Program-made: the position numbers and the translations under genes
Shown here: positions 2,451 to 58,066 of the stretch, one piece after another
Layout of the letters: the number at the start of each line of letters is the position of its first letter
How positions within the stretch are numbered: position 1 is the first letter of the stretch
Notes under the pieces: generated by a model
The model's input: only the letters and a program-made list of their open reading frames with translations
Told to the model about the DNA's origin: nothing
Databases searched by the model: none
Assembly (NCBI GenBank): GCA_028278505.1
Contig: JANQEG010000027.1
Location: forward strand, 1 to 64,000
Reading direction: 5' to 3'
Origin: Rhodobiaceae bacterium
GTDB taxonomy: Bacteria; Pseudomonadota; Alphaproteobacteria; Rhizobiales; JAKPQE01
DNA: 64,000 nt

Positions 2451-4018
2451 CAGGCGTCCGGACTGTCGGCCGGCTCCGGCTCGACATAGCGCGGAAAAAC
2501 CGGCTCGGGTTTCGGCAGTGCGGTTCCGGCGGCAAGCCGGCCGGCGGCACCGAGCGCCGCAAAGTCGCGCGCGCCCTCCTCCACCGCAAGCCCGTCGAGC
2601 AGCTTCGCCGAGGCGGTCGGCGTATAGGGCTGGGTCAGGATCGCGATCTGGCGGATCACTTCCGCCGTGACGTAGAGCACCGTGCCCATGCGTTCGGGAT
2701 CGGTCTTGCGCAGCACCCACGGCTCTTGCGCGGCGAAATAGCGGTTGGCCTCGGCCACCACCGCCCAGATCGCGGCAAGCGCGGTGTGAATCTCCTGCCG
2801 GCTCATCGCCTCGCGGCAGGTCCCGTGCAGGCTGTCGGCCTTGTCGAGGATGGCGGTGTCGTCTGGCGAAAACGCACCGGGCGCCGGCAGCCGGCCGTCG
2901 AGGTTCTTGGCGATCATCGACAGCGAGCGCTGGGCCAGATTGCCGAGATCGTTGGCGAGGTCGGCATTTATGCGCTGGACGATGGCCTCATGGCTGTAAT
3001 TGCCGTCCTGGCCGAACGGAACCTCGCGCAGGAAGAAATAGCGCACCTGATCGACGCCGTAATGGTCGGACAAGGCGAACGGATCGATGACGTTGCCGAC
3101 CGATTTCGACATCTTCTCGCCCTTGTTGAACAGGAAGCCGTGGGCGAAGACGCGTTTCGGCACCGGCACCCCGGCCGACATCAGGAAGGCCGGCCAGTAG
3201 ATCGCATGAAAGCGCAGAATGTCTTTGCCGATGATATGTATATCGGCCGGCCAGTAGCGCCGATAGCGCTCCGAGTCCTCGTCCGGGAAGCCGGCGGCGG
3301 TGATGTAATTGGTGAGCGCGTCGACCCAGACATACATGACGTGGTGCGGATCGCCCGGCACCGGCACGCCCCAGTCGAAGGTGGTGCGCGAGACCGACAG
3401 GTCGCGCAAGCCGCCCTTGACGAAGCTGATCACCTCGTTGCGCCGTTCCTCCGGGCCGATGAAATCGGGATGGGCCTCGTAATGGGCGAGCAGCGGTTCG
3501 GCATAGTCCGACAGGCGGAAGAAATAGCTCTCCTCCTCGACCCACTCGACCGGGCTGCCGGTCGGCGCCAGCCGCACGCCGTCCTCGCCGACGGTGGTTT
3601 CCGCCTCGCCGAAGAAGCCCTCGTCGCGCACCGAATACCAGCCGGAATATCTGTCGAGATAGATGTCGCCGCGCGCCGCCATGCGGTTCCAGATCTCGGT
3701 CACGGCCCGGTAGTGCCGCGGCTCGGTGGTGCGAATGAAATCGTCGTTGGAACAGGTCAGTTTTTCAACCATGGAGACGAAGCGCGGCGTGTTGCGCTCA
3801 GCCAGTTCGTGTGGCGTCAGCCCTTCCTTCGCGGCGGTCTGCAGCATCTTCTGGCCGTGCTCGTCGGTGCCGGTCAAAAAGAACACGTCATAGCCGTCGA
3901 GCCGCTTGAAGCGAGCGATCGCATCGGTGGCGATCGCTTCATAGGCGTGCCCGATATGGGGAAGCCCGTTCGGATAGGAAATCGCGGTGGTGATGAAAAA
4001 GGCAGGTTTCTCAGCCAT
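2450..4018 (-). CDS. metG: Methionyl-tRNA synthetase
   Basis: A 522-residue class I aminoacyl-tRNA synthetase that charges tRNA-Met. The signature HIGH is in [22 protein letters not shown] at residue ~20 and KMSKS is in [15 protein letters not shown] at about residue 300. The C-terminal helical anticodon-binding domain follows (about 380-500). Length and the lack of a C-terminal tRNA-binding extension fit the short alphaproteobacterial MetRS type. The ATG at 4018 begins [18 protein letters not shown]; longer in-frame sequence upstream runs into holB and has no family match. It lies in an operon with tmk and holB upstream and tatD downstream. Confidence 0.97.
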
Positions 4019-27032: not shown

Positions 27033-27527
27033 TCAGAACGTCGGATTGTTGTTCGCGATTGTGCCGCCTGACACCAGAACCAGGACTCTGGTAAAGAAGT
27101 CGATGGGTTGAAGCGCATCCCAGTGCTCCGCCAGCTTCCCATTCTCGATCCTGAACGTATCGGTGATGATGAATCCCTTTGCTTCGTTGCCGCGATGCTC
27201 TGCTTTGAGCGTGGCATGGCTGTGCAAGACCACGAAGTCTCCGCTGGAAATGATCCGCTTCACGTCGAAGGAATAAGCCGGGAACCGCTTCACGATCGTT
27301 CTGATATAGCCAACCAGGCCGGAAATCTGATCCGGAATGGCGCGGTTGTGCTGGATGTACGATCCATCGCCATAGGTGCGAAGCGTGTATTCGAAATCGT
27401 GTTCGTTCATCAGGCGCTGGAAGAAATCGACAACAAGGGCTGCGTTGTCCCTTTCCTGTTCTGTCCAGTGTTCCTGCACATGGTCGTCCAGGGAAATCAC
27501 CGGTGTCGTACTCCGCGAGGCCACCAT
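27033..27527 (-). CDS. SnoaL-like / NTF2-fold protein
   Basis: A 164-residue protein with the alpha+beta NTF2-like fold typical of SnoaL-like polyketide cyclase relatives: NAALVVDFFQRLMNEHDFEYTLRTYGDGSYIQHNRAIPDQ, YSFDVKRIISSGDFVVLHSHATLK and GFIITDTFRIENGKLAEHWDALQPI. These proteins are often small isomerases, dehydratases or hydrolases of unknown substrate. No signal sequence is evident. It is divergent from an HxlR regulator, a common pairing in which the regulator controls the enzyme. It is convergent with hyi, 21 bp apart. Confidence 0.8.
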   Translation of the reverse strand: MVASRSTTPVISLDDHVQEHWTEQERDNAALVVDFFQRLMNEHDFEYTLRTYGDGSYIQHNRAIPDQISGLVGYIRTIVKRFPAYSFDVKRIISSGDFVVLHSHATLKAEHRGNEAKGFIITDTFRIENGKLAEHWDALQPIDFFTRVLVLVSGGTIANNNPTF

Positions 27528-27611: not shown

Positions 27612-27735
27612 CTGGTATCCAAAACGCACCAATAGTCAATTACGCACTTTTATGACACTTGGTTTGTTCAATGATACCAGTCATTAATATGAGCCTTGAA
27701 ATTCGCGAAATTGGTATGATAATCGGTTTTGGTAT
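27612..27735. promoter_or_regulatory. Divergent control region with GGTAT half-sites (HxlR operator candidates)
   Basis: The AT-rich gap between the SnoaL-like gene and the HxlR gene has CTGGTATC at 27612-27619 and its exact complement GATACCAG at 27673-27680, plus TTGGTAT at 27711-27717 and 27729-27735. Repeated GGTAT half-sites in a divergent promoter next to an HxlR gene suggest operator sites, by position only. Confidence 0.4.
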
Positions 27736-27755
27736 TTTACGTGCACCGAGGCCCT

Positions 27756-28133
27756 ATGCTTCCCATTGGCGTCGAAAACAAAGGCCAAGCGCTGAACTGT
27801 CCGATTCGTTCCGTCCTTGCGAACGTCACGGGCAAATGGCGCGTCATTATCATCCTTGCATTGGAGGATGGCCCCAAGCGATTCGGCGCGATGAAGCGCT
27901 GCATCGGCGACATCACGCAGCGCGTGCTGACCGAAAACCTGCGCAGCCTTCAACGTGACGGATACCTCACCCGCACCGTCGATCCGGGACCGCCCGTCGC
28001 GGTTTCCTATGAACTGACGCCGCTCGGACAGCGTTTCCTGGAGATGATAAAGCCGCTCGTTTTTTGGTCAAACGACCACATGGAGCAGGTCAGACGCGCG
28101 CGGATGGAATACGACCGGACAGAGCGAAGGTAA
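27756..28133 (+). CDS. HxlR-family transcriptional regulator
   Basis: A 125-residue winged-helix regulator of the HxlR type. The signature is NCPIRSVLANVTGKWRVIIILALEDGPKRFGAMKRCIGDITQRVLTENLRSLQRDGYLTR, followed by VSYELTPLGQRFLEMIKPL. The N-terminal Cys seen in NCPI is the residue that senses reactive electrophiles or redox change in several family members. ATG at 27756 with GAGG upstream is preferred over a TTG at 27729. It probably controls itself and the divergent SnoaL-like gene. Base composition of the promoter is lower in GC than its surroundings, hinting at an acquired pair. Confidence 0.88.
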   Translation: MLPIGVENKGQALNCPIRSVLANVTGKWRVIIILALEDGPKRFGAMKRCIGDITQRVLTENLRSLQRDGYLTRTVDPGPPVAVSYELTPLGQRFLEMIKPLVFWSNDHMEQVRRARMEYDRTERR

Positions 28134-51655: not shown

Positions 51656-52032
51656 ATGAGCACCATGCGCACCAGCCTGAGGCCGAGATAGAGGCCGAAG
51701 ACGGCGCCGAACACCGACGTGCCGATATAGGCGGCCGCCGTCATCGTCGCGCCGCGCTCGATCATCACGACAAGGTCGAGCGAAAAGGCGGAGAAGGTGG
51801 TGAAGCCGCCGAGCATGCCGGTGGCGACCAGCAGCCGTATATTGGCCGAGCCCTGGAATTTCAGCGCCAGCAGTTCGATGAAGACGCCCATCAGCAGCGA
51901 GCCGAGGATGTTGACGGTCAGCGTGCCCCAGGGAAAGCCGGGACCGAACGCCCGCAAGGTCCACATATTGACCAGATGGCGGAGCGCGGCGCCGACCGCG
52001 CCGCCGGCTGCGACGATGAGAAGATGCTGCAT
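51652..52032 (-). CDS. crcB: Fluoride channel CrcB/Fluc
   Basis: A 126-residue membrane protein that forms dimeric fluoride channels. Four helices are seen. The family motifs are GGAVGAALRHLVN, PWGTLTVNILGSLLMGVFIELL with the pore Asn, and GMLGGFTTFSAFSLDLV with the Phe/Thr-Ser filter. Length is normal. No convincing fluoride riboswitch fold was found just upstream. The gene overlaps the pseudouridine synthase gene by four bases. Confidence 0.94.
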   Translation of the reverse strand: MQHLLIVAAGGAVGAALRHLVNMWTLRAFGPGFPWGTLTVNILGSLLMGVFIELLALKFQGSANIRLLVATGMLGGFTTFSAFSLDLVVMIERGATMTAAAYIGTSVFGAVFGLYLGLRLVRMVLM

Positions 52033-52843
52033 GATGACGGCCGTTTCCGCGGTTTCGATCGACTTCGCGACATATACCCTATCGGCGCCGGTTTCTCACC
52101 TTTGTGCGGGCGGGGCGTGGGACGCGTCTTCGATCCGTCGCAGAGAGGCAAATCTTCTGCGACCTCCGGAAATTCCCACCTCGCCCGCGAAAGCGGGCGT
52201 CCATTGGCCCGTCGACTTGCCAACGCATTTGTGAAGAAGCTCAAGCGCTTCTGAATGCCGAAAAGCCATTGGATTGCCCGGATAAACCGGGCAACGACGA
52301 TGGAGGAGGGATCGAAACCATCCCAAATTGCCTAAACCACAAACCCGGCAATGACGCCGGTGGTGGGGCGGCGTCTTTCACGCAAGCGTCCACACCACCC
52401 ACCGCTCCCGCGGAAGCGGGAGTCTTCTGCCCCGCTCAACACGGTATGTCGGCCCAGATCCGGGCGATGTCTCGAATTTATCAATTGGGCCAGGAATTTG
52501 TCGCCGACGCCAATGGTTCCCCGCTTTCGCGGGGAAGGTGCGGATTGGGAGCCAAATGGGCAATCCGGTTTCAGTTCCTGTGCTCCGTTTCGCAGTTCCT
52601 CTCCCCTGTCATCACCGGGCTTGTCCCGGTGATCCATGGGGCCTGACAGTCTGAAAACAAAGTCAGTTTGGATTGCCGGGACAAACCCGGCAATGACGCC
52701 GGTGGTGGGGCGGCGTCGTTCACGCGGAACGCCTCTCCGACCATGTTCATACCGGCGCAATTCCGTGATAAATCCACATATTCAACGGCTTAACCGGTCT
52801 CATCGAGTTTATACCGGCCAGCAATACCTTTTCGCGGGAAATT
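52033..52843. repeat. Repeat-filled intergenic region, including type B copy 2
   Basis: No gene is supported in these 811 bp. At 52178-52340 lies a type B repeat (ccattggcccgtcgacttgc through gccattggattgcccgg to ccatcccaaattgcc). A unit beginning aacccggcaatgacgccgg occurs at about 52339 and again at about 52684, giving a direct repeat of nearly 40 bp. Between them are inverted arms cgctcccgcggaagcgggag and ttccccgctttcgcgggg and a segment related to 9070-9090 in opposite orientation. Confidence 0.75.
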
Positions 52844-53866
52844 CTATCCCGGCTCCGGGCACTCATCGGTATAGGACGTCGTGATGTTGGCGAGGAACAT
52901 GTCGGCCGACTGCGCCCAGGTATACGTCATCGCGTAGTCGCGGCAGCGGTCGCCGGAAATGTCGAGTGCGGCAAGCGCCGCCGCACCCAGATCATCATCG
53001 AGCACGCCGACGCCGCTGTCGCCGATCACGTCGAGCGGGCCGGTCACCGGATAGGCGGCGACCGGCAGGCCGGAAGCGAGCGCTTCAAGCAAGACGACGC
53101 CGAAGGTGTCGGTCAGGCTCGGGAACACGAACACGTCGGCCGACGCATAATGGGCGGCCAACTCCTCGCCGACCTTGCTGCCGACGAACACCGCATCGGG
53201 GAAACGGGAAATCAGCGTCTCGCGCGCCGGCCCGTCGCCGACGACGAGTTTGGTTCCGGGCAGATCGAGCTTTAAGAAAGCCTCGATATTCTTCTCCACG
53301 GCGACGCGGCCGACATAGAGGAATACCGGCCGCGGCAGGTCGAGGATCGCGTGTTCGCGCGGACGATAGAGATCGGTATCGACGCCGCGGCTCCAACGGC
53401 AGATATGGGCAAAGCCGCGCGCGTCCAGTTCCCGCGCCAGGCTCGCGGTCGCCACCATGCAGCAGGTGCCGGCATTATGAAACCGCGCAAGCCAGCGATA
53501 GATCGGTCCCTCGGGTATCGGCAGCCGCGCCGACACATATTCGGGAAAGCGGGTGTGGAAGCTGGTGGTGAAACTGCGCCGCTTTTTGAGGCACCAGCGG
53601 CGCGCCAGAATGCCGAGCGGGCCCTCGGTGGCGATATGGATATGCTCCGGGTCGACTTCGCCCAGCCGTCGCCCGACTGCGCCGGGCGGGGCGAGCGCGA
53701 GCCGGATTTCCGGATAGGTCGGCAGCGGCAGCGTCCGATACTGGCTCGGCACGATCGGAACGACCTCGATGCCGCGCTGATCCAGCTCGTGCTGCAGATT
53801 TTGAAACGTGCGAACGACGCCGTTGACCTGCGGCGCCCAGGCGTCGGAAACCAGCGCTATCCGCAT
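52844..53866 (-). CDS. Glycosyltransferase (GT4 type), predicted glycolipid synthase Agt-like
   Basis: A 340-residue GT-B glycosyltransferase. The N-terminal domain starts MRIALVSDAWAPQVNGVVRT, with TSFHTRFPEYV and the linker RPVFLYVGRVAVEKNIEAFL, and the C-terminal donor site has VVGDGPARE, FVGSKVGEELAAHYASADVFVFPSLTDTFGVVLLEALASGLPVAAYPVTGP (E-x7-E). It belongs to the group of mannosyl/glucosyl/glucuronosyl transferases acting on diacylglycerol or PI. It starts at 53866, sharing one base with the plcP stop (TGATG). In the plcP-agt pair of marine alphaproteobacteria the transferase makes glycolipids from diacylglycerol. The sugar is not identifiable from sequence. Confidence 0.85.
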   Translation of the reverse strand: MRIALVSDAWAPQVNGVVRTFQNLQHELDQRGIEVVPIVPSQYRTLPLPTYPEIRLALAPPGAVGRRLGEVDPEHIHIATEGPLGILARRWCLKKRRSFTTSFHTRFPEYVSARLPIPEGPIYRWLARFHNAGTCCMVATASLARELDARGFAHICRWSRGVDTDLYRPREHAILDLPRPVFLYVGRVAVEKNIEAFLKLDLPGTKLVVGDGPARETLISRFPDAVFVGSKVGEELAAHYASADVFVFPSLTDTFGVVLLEALASGLPVAAYPVTGPLDVIGDSGVGVLDDDLGAAALAALDISGDRCRDYAMTYTWAQSADMFLANITTSYTDECPEPG

Positions 53867-54693
53867 CAAGCGGCCTCCAGCGGCTTCCTCGTCGCCGCGG
53901 CCAGCACGTGCTTCTGGTAGATTTCGCTCCAGCGGATGATCCGGTACGCGCCGTCGAGGGTTTCGACGATTGCCGTACAGCTTTCGACCCAGTCGCCGGT
54001 GTTCATGTAGCGAATGCCATAGTCGTCATGGATCGCGGCGTGGTGGATGTGGCCGCAGATGACCCCGTCGACGCCGTTTTGCCTGGCCTCCTCGGCGACG
54101 ACGCGCTCGAATTCGCCGATGAAGTTGACCGCGTTCTTGACCTTGAGCTTGGCCCAGGCCGACAGCGACCAGTAGGGAAATCCGAGCCAGCGCCGGACGA
54201 TGTTAAAAGTGGTGTTGGCTTTTAAAGCGAGATCGTAGGCCCAGTCGCCGAGAATGGCGAGAAAGCGGGCATGGCGGACGACCACGTCGAACTCGTCGCC
54301 GTGGAGGATCAGATGCCGCTTGCCGTCGAGCCCCTCATGGACGGCGCGGCCGACGATCCGGATGCTGCCGAAATGGCCGTCGAGATAATCGCGCAGGAAC
54401 TCGTCGTGATTGCCCGGAACATAGATGATGCGCGCGCCCTTGCGGCCCTTGCGCAGGATCTTCTGGACGATGTCGTTGTGGGCCTGCGGCCAGTACCACG
54501 ACCGGCGCAGCCGCCAGCCGTCGACGATGTCGCCGATGAGGTAGATGAGATCGGCGTCGTGGAAGCGCAGAAATTCGAGCAGCAGCGCTGCCTGGCAGCC
54601 GCGCGTGCCGAGATGGATATCGGACAGGAAGATGGCGCGGTAGTGGCGCGTGGTGAGGTCTTCCAACGGCTCAATTTGATCGTCTTTGGGCAT
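53866..54693 (-). CDS. plcP: PlcP-like metallophosphoesterase (phospholipase C type)
   Basis: A 275-residue calcineurin-like phosphoesterase. The metal-binding motifs are SDIHLGTRGCQ, IGDIVDGWRL, VPGNHDEFLRDY, LHGDEFDVVVRH and CGHIHHAAI. It looks like LpxH/UDP-diacylglucosamine hydrolases, but in the neighbourhood of betaine-lipid and glycosyltransferase genes it fits PlcP, which removes headgroups from phospholipids to leave diacylglycerol under phosphate limitation. ATG at 54693 begins MPKDDQIEPLEDL; upstream sequence runs into btaB. The gap to btaB is 26 bp. Without biochemical data LpxH-like activity cannot be excluded. Confidence 0.85.
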   Translation of the reverse strand: MPKDDQIEPLEDLTTRHYRAIFLSDIHLGTRGCQAALLLEFLRFHDADLIYLIGDIVDGWRLRRSWYWPQAHNDIVQKILRKGRKGARIIYVPGNHDEFLRDYLDGHFGSIRIVGRAVHEGLDGKRHLILHGDEFDVVVRHARFLAILGDWAYDLALKANTTFNIVRRWLGFPYWSLSAWAKLKVKNAVNFIGEFERVVAEEARQNGVDGVICGHIHHAAIHDDYGIRYMNTGDWVESCTAIVETLDGAYRIIRWSEIYQKHVLAAATRKPLEAA

Positions 54694-54719
54694 TCGCCGT
54701 TCCAATCCGCATCCGGGGA

Positions 54720-55397
54720 TTATCTGCCTGCTGTCGCCGGGCGCGACAGCGTGGCCAGAAACGCATAGCCGCGGCCGAAGGCGCGAATGTCGACATCGCA
54801 TCCCCGCACTTCGGCCAGGGCCCTGAGCGCGGCAGCGAACTCGCCGGCGCGCGGCGCGACGTGAAAGAGCGAAAGCCAGGCGAACAGCAGCCGTCGGAAG
54901 ACGGCCGGCAGATCGCGCTGCGCGCCAAAATCGACGATGTGCAGGCGCCCGCCAAGCGCGAGCCCGTTCGCCGCCCGGGTCAGCGCCGAACGCCAGTCGG
55001 GGATCATTGACAGCGTGTAGGAAAAGGCGATGCGGTCGAAGCCGTCGAGGCGGAAGGGAAAGCGCGGATCGGTCGCCGCCGCGTCGGCCTCGGCAAGCGT
55101 GATCCGCTCGGCCAGCCCGGCGCGGCCGATCGCGGCCCTCGCTGTGGCGAGCATTTCGGTCGAGATATCGATGCCGTAGAGCCGGGTCGTCGGGTGGCGG
55201 CGGGCGATTTCGATCAGATTGCGCCCGGTGCCGCAGCCGATTTCAAGCACCCGTCCATTTACCGGCGGATCGAGTTCGGCGATCAGCCGGTCGCGGCCGA
55301 ACAGATAATATTTGCGCGTCGCATTGTAGATATGGCGCTGATACCGGTAGGTCCGGTCCATCAATTGGCGATGCGGGGTCCGCGCGGCGGCCGTCAT
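54720..55397 (-). CDS. btaB: Betaine-lipid N-methyltransferase BtaB-like
   Basis: A 225-residue class I SAM-dependent methyltransferase. The SAM motif I is GRVLEIGCGTGRNLIEIARRHPTTRLYGIDIS (residues ~50-81), preceded by MDRTYRYQRHIYNATRKYYLFGRDRLI, a pattern characteristic of BtaB. It should methylate diacylglyceryl-homoserine three times to give the betaine lipid DGTS. It overlaps the btaA stop by four bases (ATGA) and is followed by plcP. The pair btaA-btaB is as in Rhodobacter and Sinorhizobium. Confidence 0.9.
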   Translation of the reverse strand: MTAAARTPHRQLMDRTYRYQRHIYNATRKYYLFGRDRLIAELDPPVNGRVLEIGCGTGRNLIEIARRHPTTRLYGIDISTEMLATARAAIGRAGLAERITLAEADAAATDPRFPFRLDGFDRIAFSYTLSMIPDWRSALTRAANGLALGGRLHIVDFGAQRDLPAVFRRLLFAWLSLFHVAPRAGEFAAALRALAEVRGCDVDIRAFGRGYAFLATLSRPATAGR

Positions 55398-56641
55398 GCG
55401 TCGAGCCCCCGCAGCCTGTAGAGATGGAAACCGCCATAGATCGCCGAGCGGTCGCGCTCATGGACCGCGGCGGAGGTTTCCGCGTCGTAGCGCCAGCGGC
55501 CGAGAATATCGTCGTCGACGCGGCCGGGAAGCAGGTCCGGCTCAGCCGCGGTGCGGAAAATCACCCGGGCGCCCGGCCTGGCGGTGCGGGTGATCTCGTA
55601 CCAGAGCGCGTTCAATTGCTCGTCGCTCATCCAGTCCTGGGCGTCGAGCAGGACCACGCGGTCGACGCTTTCCGGCGGCTGATCGGCAAGAAAATCGGTC
55701 ATCGACCGGTGCAGCACACTGACCTCTTCCGCCCGCGCGCGCAGCGCCCCGAACCGGGATTGCCGGAGATAGAGCGGCAGCGCCTCGTCGGCGTCGGTCG
55801 AATAGCGCCGGCCGAAGGCCTGATGGGCGAAATAATTGTCGGAAAGGTCGAAATCGCAGGCCAGCCGGCGCAGACGGTCGCGCAGCACATCGGCCATGTG
55901 GCGGTCCCCGGCGAGTGCTGAATACTGCGCCGGCGGAATGCCGAGGCCGTAGAGCGAGATCGTCCGGCCGGTCAGCCAGCGCAGGAAGCGCCGGTCGAAC
56001 AGCGGCGCGATCTGGGCATCGAAAATCTCGATCTGCTGATCGCGATCGCCGGCCGTGAGCATGATCCGCGGATCGATGCCGTATAGGCGCGCCACCTTGT
56101 GGGCAGCGCCGATGAAGCGGCCGAGCAGCCCCTTGGTGTAGAAATTGCCGGAAAACGCCGCGATGCGCCGGCGGCCGAGGCGCCGCCGCTGCCAATAGCT
56201 GCGGGTCGCCGGGTCAAGGGCGCGGTCGAGGCAGCGGTCGAACGCGGCAATGTTGTCGGGCTGGCGCGGCTCGGCGAAGAACCGCCGGAACGCCGCATAG
56301 TCGGGCAGGTTCCGGGCGGCGGCGAGCTTCAATCGGGTCAGCGCGATATGGGCCGGGTTGAGGTCGACCGCGGTGATTTTGCATGGCGCCGCGGACAGGT
56401 AGGACATGACGTTGCAGCCGCCCGACGAGATCGTCACCAGATGGTTGTCCGGCTCGATCTCGAGTGCGTCGAGGTCGGCTTCCGGGTCCTCCCAGATCTG
56501 CGGATAGACGAGGCCGGTGAACGCCATCGTAAACAGCCTGTCGAGCATGCCGGCATTGGGCCTGGCGCTGTCTGCCCCGAGCGCCGCCCGGATCCTCGAC
56601 GCCGACGCCTTGCGTGAAGCGATCGCGACTGCGTCCAACAC
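55394..56641 (-). CDS. btaA: BtaA, SAM:diacylglycerol 3-amino-3-carboxypropyltransferase
   Basis: A 415-residue enzyme of the DUF3419 family that moves the 3-amino-3-carboxypropyl group of SAM to diacylglycerol, the first step to betaine lipid. Recognisable parts are FTMAFTGLVYPQIWEDPEADLDAL, LVTISSGGCNVMSYLSAAPCKITAVDLNPAHIALTRLKL and DRVVLLDAQDWMSDEQLNALWYEITRTARPGARVIFRTAA. The start is GTG at 56641, or TTG at 56638, after AGGAG at 56646-56650 (plus strand ctcct). Upstream in-frame sequence includes repeat DNA and is excluded. The Pho-box-like site lies 67 bp upstream. It heads an operon of four genes for lipid exchange. Confidence 0.9.
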   Translation of the reverse strand: MLDAVAIASRKASASRIRAALGADSARPNAGMLDRLFTMAFTGLVYPQIWEDPEADLDALEIEPDNHLVTISSGGCNVMSYLSAAPCKITAVDLNPAHIALTRLKLAAARNLPDYAAFRRFFAEPRQPDNIAAFDRCLDRALDPATRSYWQRRRLGRRRIAAFSGNFYTKGLLGRFIGAAHKVARLYGIDPRIMLTAGDRDQQIEIFDAQIAPLFDRRFLRWLTGRTISLYGLGIPPAQYSALAGDRHMADVLRDRLRRLACDFDLSDNYFAHQAFGRRYSTDADEALPLYLRQSRFGALRARAEEVSVLHRSMTDFLADQPPESVDRVVLLDAQDWMSDEQLNALWYEITRTARPGARVIFRTAAEPDLLPGRVDDDILGRWRYDAETSAAVHERDRSAIYGGFHLYRLRGLDA

Positions 56642-56707
56642 TCCACTCCTCTTAACGGTTGCGAATCGATTGTCCTGTGGTCGTCGTCCTGCGGATAAAG
56701 TGGAAGC

Positions 56708-56725
56708 ATGAAAGACGGATGACAC
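56708..56725 (-). promoter_or_regulatory. Pho-box-like direct repeat upstream of btaA
   Basis: On the coding strand of btaA the site reads GTGTCAT CCGT CTTTCAT: two heptamers, each one change away from CTGTCAT, separated by exactly four bases. That is the architecture of PhoB-binding sites. It lies 67 bp before the btaA start, near where an activator would stand for a -35-deficient promoter. Confidence 0.65.
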
Positions 56726-57649: not shown

Positions 57650-58066
57650 TTGAAACCGCTCTGCAGCATTACCGATCTCTGCCGCGAATTCGACGTGTCG
57701 ACGCGGACCCTGCGCTTTTACGAGACCGAGGGCCTGATTTCGCCGATCCGGCGCGGCCGCCAGCGGCTCTATCGCTCCAGCGACCGGACCCGGCTGAAGC
57801 TGATCCTGCGCGGCAAGCGGCTCGGCTTCACGCTCGCCGAGATCCGCGAAATCGTCGACATGTATCGCGCGCCGCCCGGCGAAACCGGGCAGCTTCTGCT
57901 GCTGGTCGACAAGATTGCCGACCGGCGGGCCGAATTGATGCAAAAGCAACGCGATATCGAGCTGACGCTTTCCGAGCTCAACGAAGTCGAAGCCGGCTGC
58001 CGCCAACGGCTCGACGCGCTTGGCGCCCGCGGGCCCGCAAAAGCGGGAGACGATGATGGGGTTTGA
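57650..58066 (+). CDS. MerR-family regulator (LiuR-like)
   Basis: A 138-residue MerR regulator. The DNA-binding domain has SITDLCREFDVSTRTLRFYETEGLISPIRRGRQRLYRSSDRTRLKLILRGKRLGFTLAEIREIVDMY (residues ~6-75), followed by a dimerisation helix rich in Glu/Arg. Lack of effector cysteines and the gene context (isovaleryl-CoA dehydrogenase) fit LiuR, the repressor of branched-chain amino-acid degradation that responds to CoA thioesters. The start is TTG at 57650 with CGAGGG upstream. Its stop lies inside the next gene. The palindrome at 57591-57612 is its probable operator. Confidence 0.85.
   Translation: MKPLCSITDLCREFDVSTRTLRFYETEGLISPIRRGRQRLYRSSDRTRLKLILRGKRLGFTLAEIREIVDMYRAPPGETGQLLLLVDKIADRRAELMQKQRDIELTLSELNEVEAGCRQRLDALGARGPAKAGDDDGV

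Follow-up and report, generated by a model that had tools for sequence, protein, structure and literature searches.

The window, a 64 kb stretch of bacterial DNA, carries four adjacent genes that very probably form an operon for membrane remodelling under phosphate starvation, driven by PhoB and with the activities predicted below. The row btaA-btaB-plcP-GT4 lies entirely on the minus strand, its members being separated, in that order, by a 4-base overlap (ATGA), a 26-base gap (54694-54719) and a 1-base overlap (TGATG). A sequence-only reading had proposed this layout and the identities of the four genes. The coordinates confirm the layout, and the identities are borne out by family assignments and motifs. 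The features are as follows:

55394-56638, minus strand: btaA, S-adenosylmethionine:diacylglycerol 3-amino-3-carboxypropyl transferase (DUF3419; PF11899, 360.7 bits over residues 37-408)
54720-55397, minus strand: btaB, class-I methyltransferase with predicted N-methylation to DGTS (PF13649)
53866-54693, minus strand: plcP, calcineurin-type metallophosphoesterase of the intracellular phospholipase C type, with predicted diacylglycerol release (PF00149)
52844-53866, minus strand: agt-like GT4 glycosyltransferase, predicted glucosyl/glucuronosyl-diacylglycerol synthase (family search and residue match)
56646-56653, minus strand: ribosome-binding site AAGAGGAG before btaA, read from the sequence
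56692-56697, minus strand: possible, weak -10 hexamer TATCCG, read from the sequence 10 bases past the box
56708-56725, minus strand: Pho-box-like candidate PhoB site GTGTCATCCGTCTTTCAT (consensus comparison and de novo motif, 13.4 bits)

The coding content of the system amounts to 3.8 kb, to which the promoter is added. The btaA reading frame can be extended to 56956, yet homologues start near the TTG at 56638; the GTG at 56641 is an alternative start. Downstream, the nearest same-strand gene is crcB, which starts at 52032, about 800 bases from the operon, and a divergent MerR-type gene starts at 57650 on the other side, so that the four-gene row stands alone. Since the operon lies in the interior of a 72 kb contig (3.35 Mb assembly, 150 contigs), a contig-end artefact is unlikely. 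No clear terminator was found after the GT4 gene. The intergenic stretch downstream of the operon (about 52330-52760) is repeat-like, with minus-strand reading frames containing TTGVIAGFVPAI, and resembles stretches in other intergenic regions of the same genome. The DUF3419 protein BtaA is full-length and shares 52-70% identity with 15 homologues; it is followed by a SAM methyltransferase, the succession by which DGTS-synthesis genes are recognized. A btaB homologue likewise lies behind btaA in the relatives' loci that were compared.

The candidate PhoB site, GTGTCAT-CCGT-CTTTCAT, stands 69 bases before the TTG start of btaA and differs from CTGTCAT-N4-CTGTCAT by two mismatches. It is the sole match with at most 3 mismatches in the 64 kb window, where 2.55 are expected by chance, and by count alone this match proves nothing. 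Sites with at most 2 mismatches number only six in the 3.35 Mb genome. As consensus counting in the window alone lacks significance, we turned to motif discovery on relatives, using 51 upstream stretches of their plcP and btaA homologues with the window excluded. The motif found de novo, TGTCACAAAACTGACA, is the Pho box, and it occurs on the coding strand of nearly all of the 51 promoters. The site that the sequence-only reading had pointed out before btaA fits this motif at 13.4 bits, the second-best score across the 64 kb. Random 250-base sequences reach this value in about 1% of cases on the minus strand and in none on the plus strand. Among held-out loci, 13 of the 24 candidate leading promoters score at least 13.4 bits, compared with 1.85% of random stretches. 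The 10-base spacing between the box and the possible -10 hexamer fits a PhoB-activated promoter. This hexamer is poor, and the promoter scan gave no sigma-70 match at the btaA promoter.

The same genome contains a complete phoR-pstSCAB-phoU-phoB locus on contig C105. Overlapping Pho-box repeats, CGTTATAAAACTGTCACATAGCTGTTGCA, lie ahead of pstS beside this locus (L147, 2200-2240 of C105), and the box before pstS scores 17.6 bits with the relatives' motif. The window box is weaker than this one and than most relatives' boxes. It consists of tandem CTGTCAT-like repeats with a 4-base spacer, placed before the first gene in a genome that has phoB, as is expected of a member of the Pho regulon. No clear Pho gene is attached to two other close consensus sites of the genome, on C20 (one mismatch) and C95 (two mismatches). 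The top score of the window, 14.4 bits, belongs to another minus-strand site at 27640-27657, TGTCATAAAAGTGCGTAA, between two genes that we take by eye to encode a SnoaL-like protein (27033-27527, minus strand) and an HxlR-like regulator (27729-28133, plus strand). This could be either a Pho site or an operator of another kind.

Co-occurrence of the genes in relatives is strong. Among 81 genomes of the order, none of the 23 with a strong BtaA lacks PlcP, and 34 of the other 58 have it (Fisher p = 5.6e-5); a wider probe found it in 135 of 136 BtaA-bearing genomes. In the same 81 genomes, plcP usually adjoins a GT4 gene. Of 138 BtaA genomes, 26 have btaA and plcP at most a few kb apart, while random placement would give about 0.2. 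Most relatives hold the plcP-GT4 and btaAB modules apart, and many of the corresponding promoters have Pho-box-like sites; co-regulation thus does not need fusion. This is the case in the nearest genome, G001, which belongs to the same family: its plcP-GT4 pair and its btaA-btaB pair lie on separate contigs. Its plcP promoter carries a 16.3-bit Pho box and its btaA promoter a weaker 12.2-bit candidate, under the 12.5-bit listing threshold, suggesting that the two modules are probably co-regulated without being fused. In one further genome (G030) plcP occurs twice, once behind btaAB (L092, contig C3) and once followed by a GT4 gene (contig C18), each lipid branch thereby having its own plcP.

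The separate modules of G001, together with the two mismatches of the Pho-like site and the chance expectation of a match with at most 3 mismatches in 64 kb, could be read as indicating that the four genes are clustered without being one regulatory unit, the site being fortuitous or serving btaAB only and plcP-agt being transcribed from an unseen promoter. We consider this unlikely. Indeed, the position and strand of the site agree with those of the relatives' btaA boxes, the genes overlap or are 26 bases apart, and the Pho-motif scan gave no score exceeding zero bits where one gene of the operon meets the next.

Other assignments were also considered for the two last genes. LpxH is the closest solved family to PlcP, and public records label such proteins 'UDP-2,3-diacylglucosamine diphosphatase', which would make the metallophosphoesterase an enzyme of lipid A synthesis placed beside btaAB incidentally. 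This is very improbable, and the concern that PlcP might act only as LpxH, raised from the outset, is most likely unfounded: PlcP fails the LpxH equivalog test (TIGR01854) with 38.3 bits for a cut-off of 190.35, the genome has an LpxI gene at another place (C84:19945-20352), and two further points speak against it, the strong co-occurrence with BtaA and the fact that many relatives have plcP linked to agt or bta genes. The presence of LpxI, of the complete phoR-pstSCAB-phoU-phoB locus and of a single PlcP homologue in the genome also makes a role as LpxH unlikely. The metal-site motifs of PlcP are complete (SDIHLG, GDIVD, GNHD, HGDEFD and GHIHHA), and the protein shares 62% identity with a homologue from Sinorhizobium meliloti. 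As for the transferase, GT4 is a very broad family whose generic models match it weakly, so that a surface polysaccharide or another lipid could be imagined as its target, its downstream position being a matter of chance; we regard this as improbable too, although slightly less so than the LpxH assignment. The gene adjoins plcP across the order, and the signature residues of Agt and GTcp are conserved, including an Asp that replaces the usual Glu. In GTcp of SAR11, the catalytic, UDP-sugar-binding and DAG-binding residues were identified by mutagenesis (PMC8231724). Their counterparts here, matched by motif and position and not by alignment to the GTcp sequence, are residues 16, 82, 85, 104, 160, 187, 192, 253-256, 261 and 317, which are mostly invariant across 33 homologues. 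H104 and D253 (in FPSLTDTFG) correspond to the catalytic pair His104-Asp256 of GTcp (PMC8231724). The UDP-sugar motifs GRVAXEKN and FPSXTDTFG are found as GRVAVEKN at 186 and FPSLTDTFG at 248, and the DAG residues Arg163 and Trp320 correspond by position to R160 and W317, with a constant offset of -3, both being nearly invariant in the homologues.

The LpxH name is also attached to the plcP homologues of three plasmid records (H1, H4 and H8), as in many public records, and is likely a systematic misnaming. This label hides a phosphate-saving pathway. The plasmid search also returned a plcP-agt pair in Roseomonas, among three records examined.

For the PhoB-driven operon, we infer PhoB binding, a single transcript, and the enzyme activities and products as follows. 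At low phosphate, phosphorylated PhoB would bind the box at 56708-56725 and promote one transcript of the four genes. PlcP would strip the phosphorylated head group from phospholipids, yielding diacylglycerol. BtaA would move the 3-amino-3-carboxypropyl group of SAM onto this diacylglycerol, and BtaB would methylate the product three times to give zwitterionic DGTS, a presumed stand-in for PC and PE. The GT4 transferase would use UDP-sugars to attach glucose, glucuronic acid or both to diacylglycerol, with MGlcDG and the anionic lipid GlcADG as products, the latter standing in for PG. Co-transcription could reasonably lead to a putative 'balanced exchange' of lipids. The PlcP of S. meliloti is reported to be active on PE and PC only (as described in PMC4796936), and with such a limitation the exchange of PG for GlcADG may need another source of diacylglycerol.

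The combination of both lipid branches in one locus is not unique to this genome. Across the genomes examined we found 13 intact four-gene loci including the window, in at least five arrangements:

btaA-btaB-plcP-GT4: four loci, namely L089 (G037), L236 (G229), L237 (G334) and the window
plcP-GT4-btaA-btaB: L090, L091, L167 (Pseudorhodoplanes sp.) and L207 (Pseudaminobacter manganicus)
GT4-plcP-btaA-btaB: L241 and L251
divergent layout of the four genes: L190 and L249
btaA-btaB-GT4 facing plcP: L225

The named and numbered locus collections are partly redundant (L222 and L100 share length and layout), and the four-gene loci were told apart by their differing identities to the window. L089, L236 and L237 have the gene order and strand of the window and a candidate box before btaA, but their proteins are only 49-69% identical to those of the window and they belong to other families of the same order. 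The count leaves out L094 (G015:C396), whose GT4 homologue is truncated (2732-3126, beside a convergent btaB), all four genes being otherwise present; the short GT4 may reflect gene decay or an error of assembly.

The four-gene state changes nine times on the BtaA tree (nine rows), eight of these changes being forced by supported branches, and 11 times on a larger PlcP tree, while the label of the window's exact gene order changes 4 times on the PlcP tree and 3 times on the GT4 tree, gains being indistinguishable from losses in these parsimony counts. Judged from these trees, a single origin is insufficient for the four-gene arrangement and several independent changes are needed. A supported set of three (96*) in the larger PlcP tree unites the window with G001 and L236, and the window and L236 may therefore share part of their history. 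The nearest relatives of the window's GT4 (99*) and BtaA (100*) are the corresponding proteins of G001, where the modules are separate; no supported placement of its BtaB was obtained. The GC content of the operon is 0.66, near the 0.64 of the window. These affinities and the GC content favour vertical inheritance followed by rearrangement. We also considered whether the operon had been acquired horizontally in one piece, as a 'selfish' block; this is disfavoured, PlcP, GT4 and BtaA being nearest to G001 and the GC content near that of the window.

The plcP-btaAB and plcP-agt modules are already published separately, and the fused four-gene unit is a variation on a known system. Sebastian et al. 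2015 describe plcP with btaAB as type 1 and plcP with agt as type 2, note putative Pho boxes, and tested the PlcP of Phaeobacter MED193 and the Agt of SAR11 (PMC4796936). The window resembles type 1, plcP-btaA-btaB, as in Phaeobacter sp. MED193, which combines PlcP with DGTS-synthesis genes and putative Pho boxes and is described as acting in phosphate-limited remodelling (PMC4796936). However, plcP precedes btaAB in the description of type 1, where agt is not mentioned, whereas in the window btaAB come first and agt is added (PMC4796936). It also resembles type 2, plcP followed by an Agt-type GT4 gene, as described for SAR11 HTCC7211 and Erythrobacter NAP1 (PMC4796936), and the plcP-agt operon of Methylosinus trichosporium OB3b, where plcP is directly followed by such a gene and deletion abolishes GADG (PMC9239053). 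Unlike the window operon, these plcP-agt units are described without btaAB. GTcp (Candidatus Pelagibacter HTCC7211) and Agt (atu2297, Agrobacterium) share the catalytic pair, UDP-sugar motifs and DAG-binding residues with the window's GT4. No description of the four-gene unit was found in the open-access papers searched; a fused example may be listed in the supplementary tables of PMC4796936.

Two published lipid-remodelling modules are thus joined in one predicted transcript. All the parts are known, and it seems that both rebuilding branches have come to lie several times behind one phosphate-starvation switch. We regard the locus as a well-supported and mostly ordinary phosphate-saving operon, of more interest through its repeated assembly. 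A more speculative reading is that the three functions were brought together repeatedly and independently in Hyphomicrobiales (13 intact four-gene loci in five or more layouts, a single Pho box leading several of them), which would reflect selection for a fixed DGTS:GlcADG ratio beyond co-regulation; we think this rather doubtful. The system is compact enough to ask whether operon structure is the means by which bacteria fix the proportions of their phosphorus-free lipids, and the repeated linkage constitutes a natural experiment in which genomes with fused and with separate modules can be compared.
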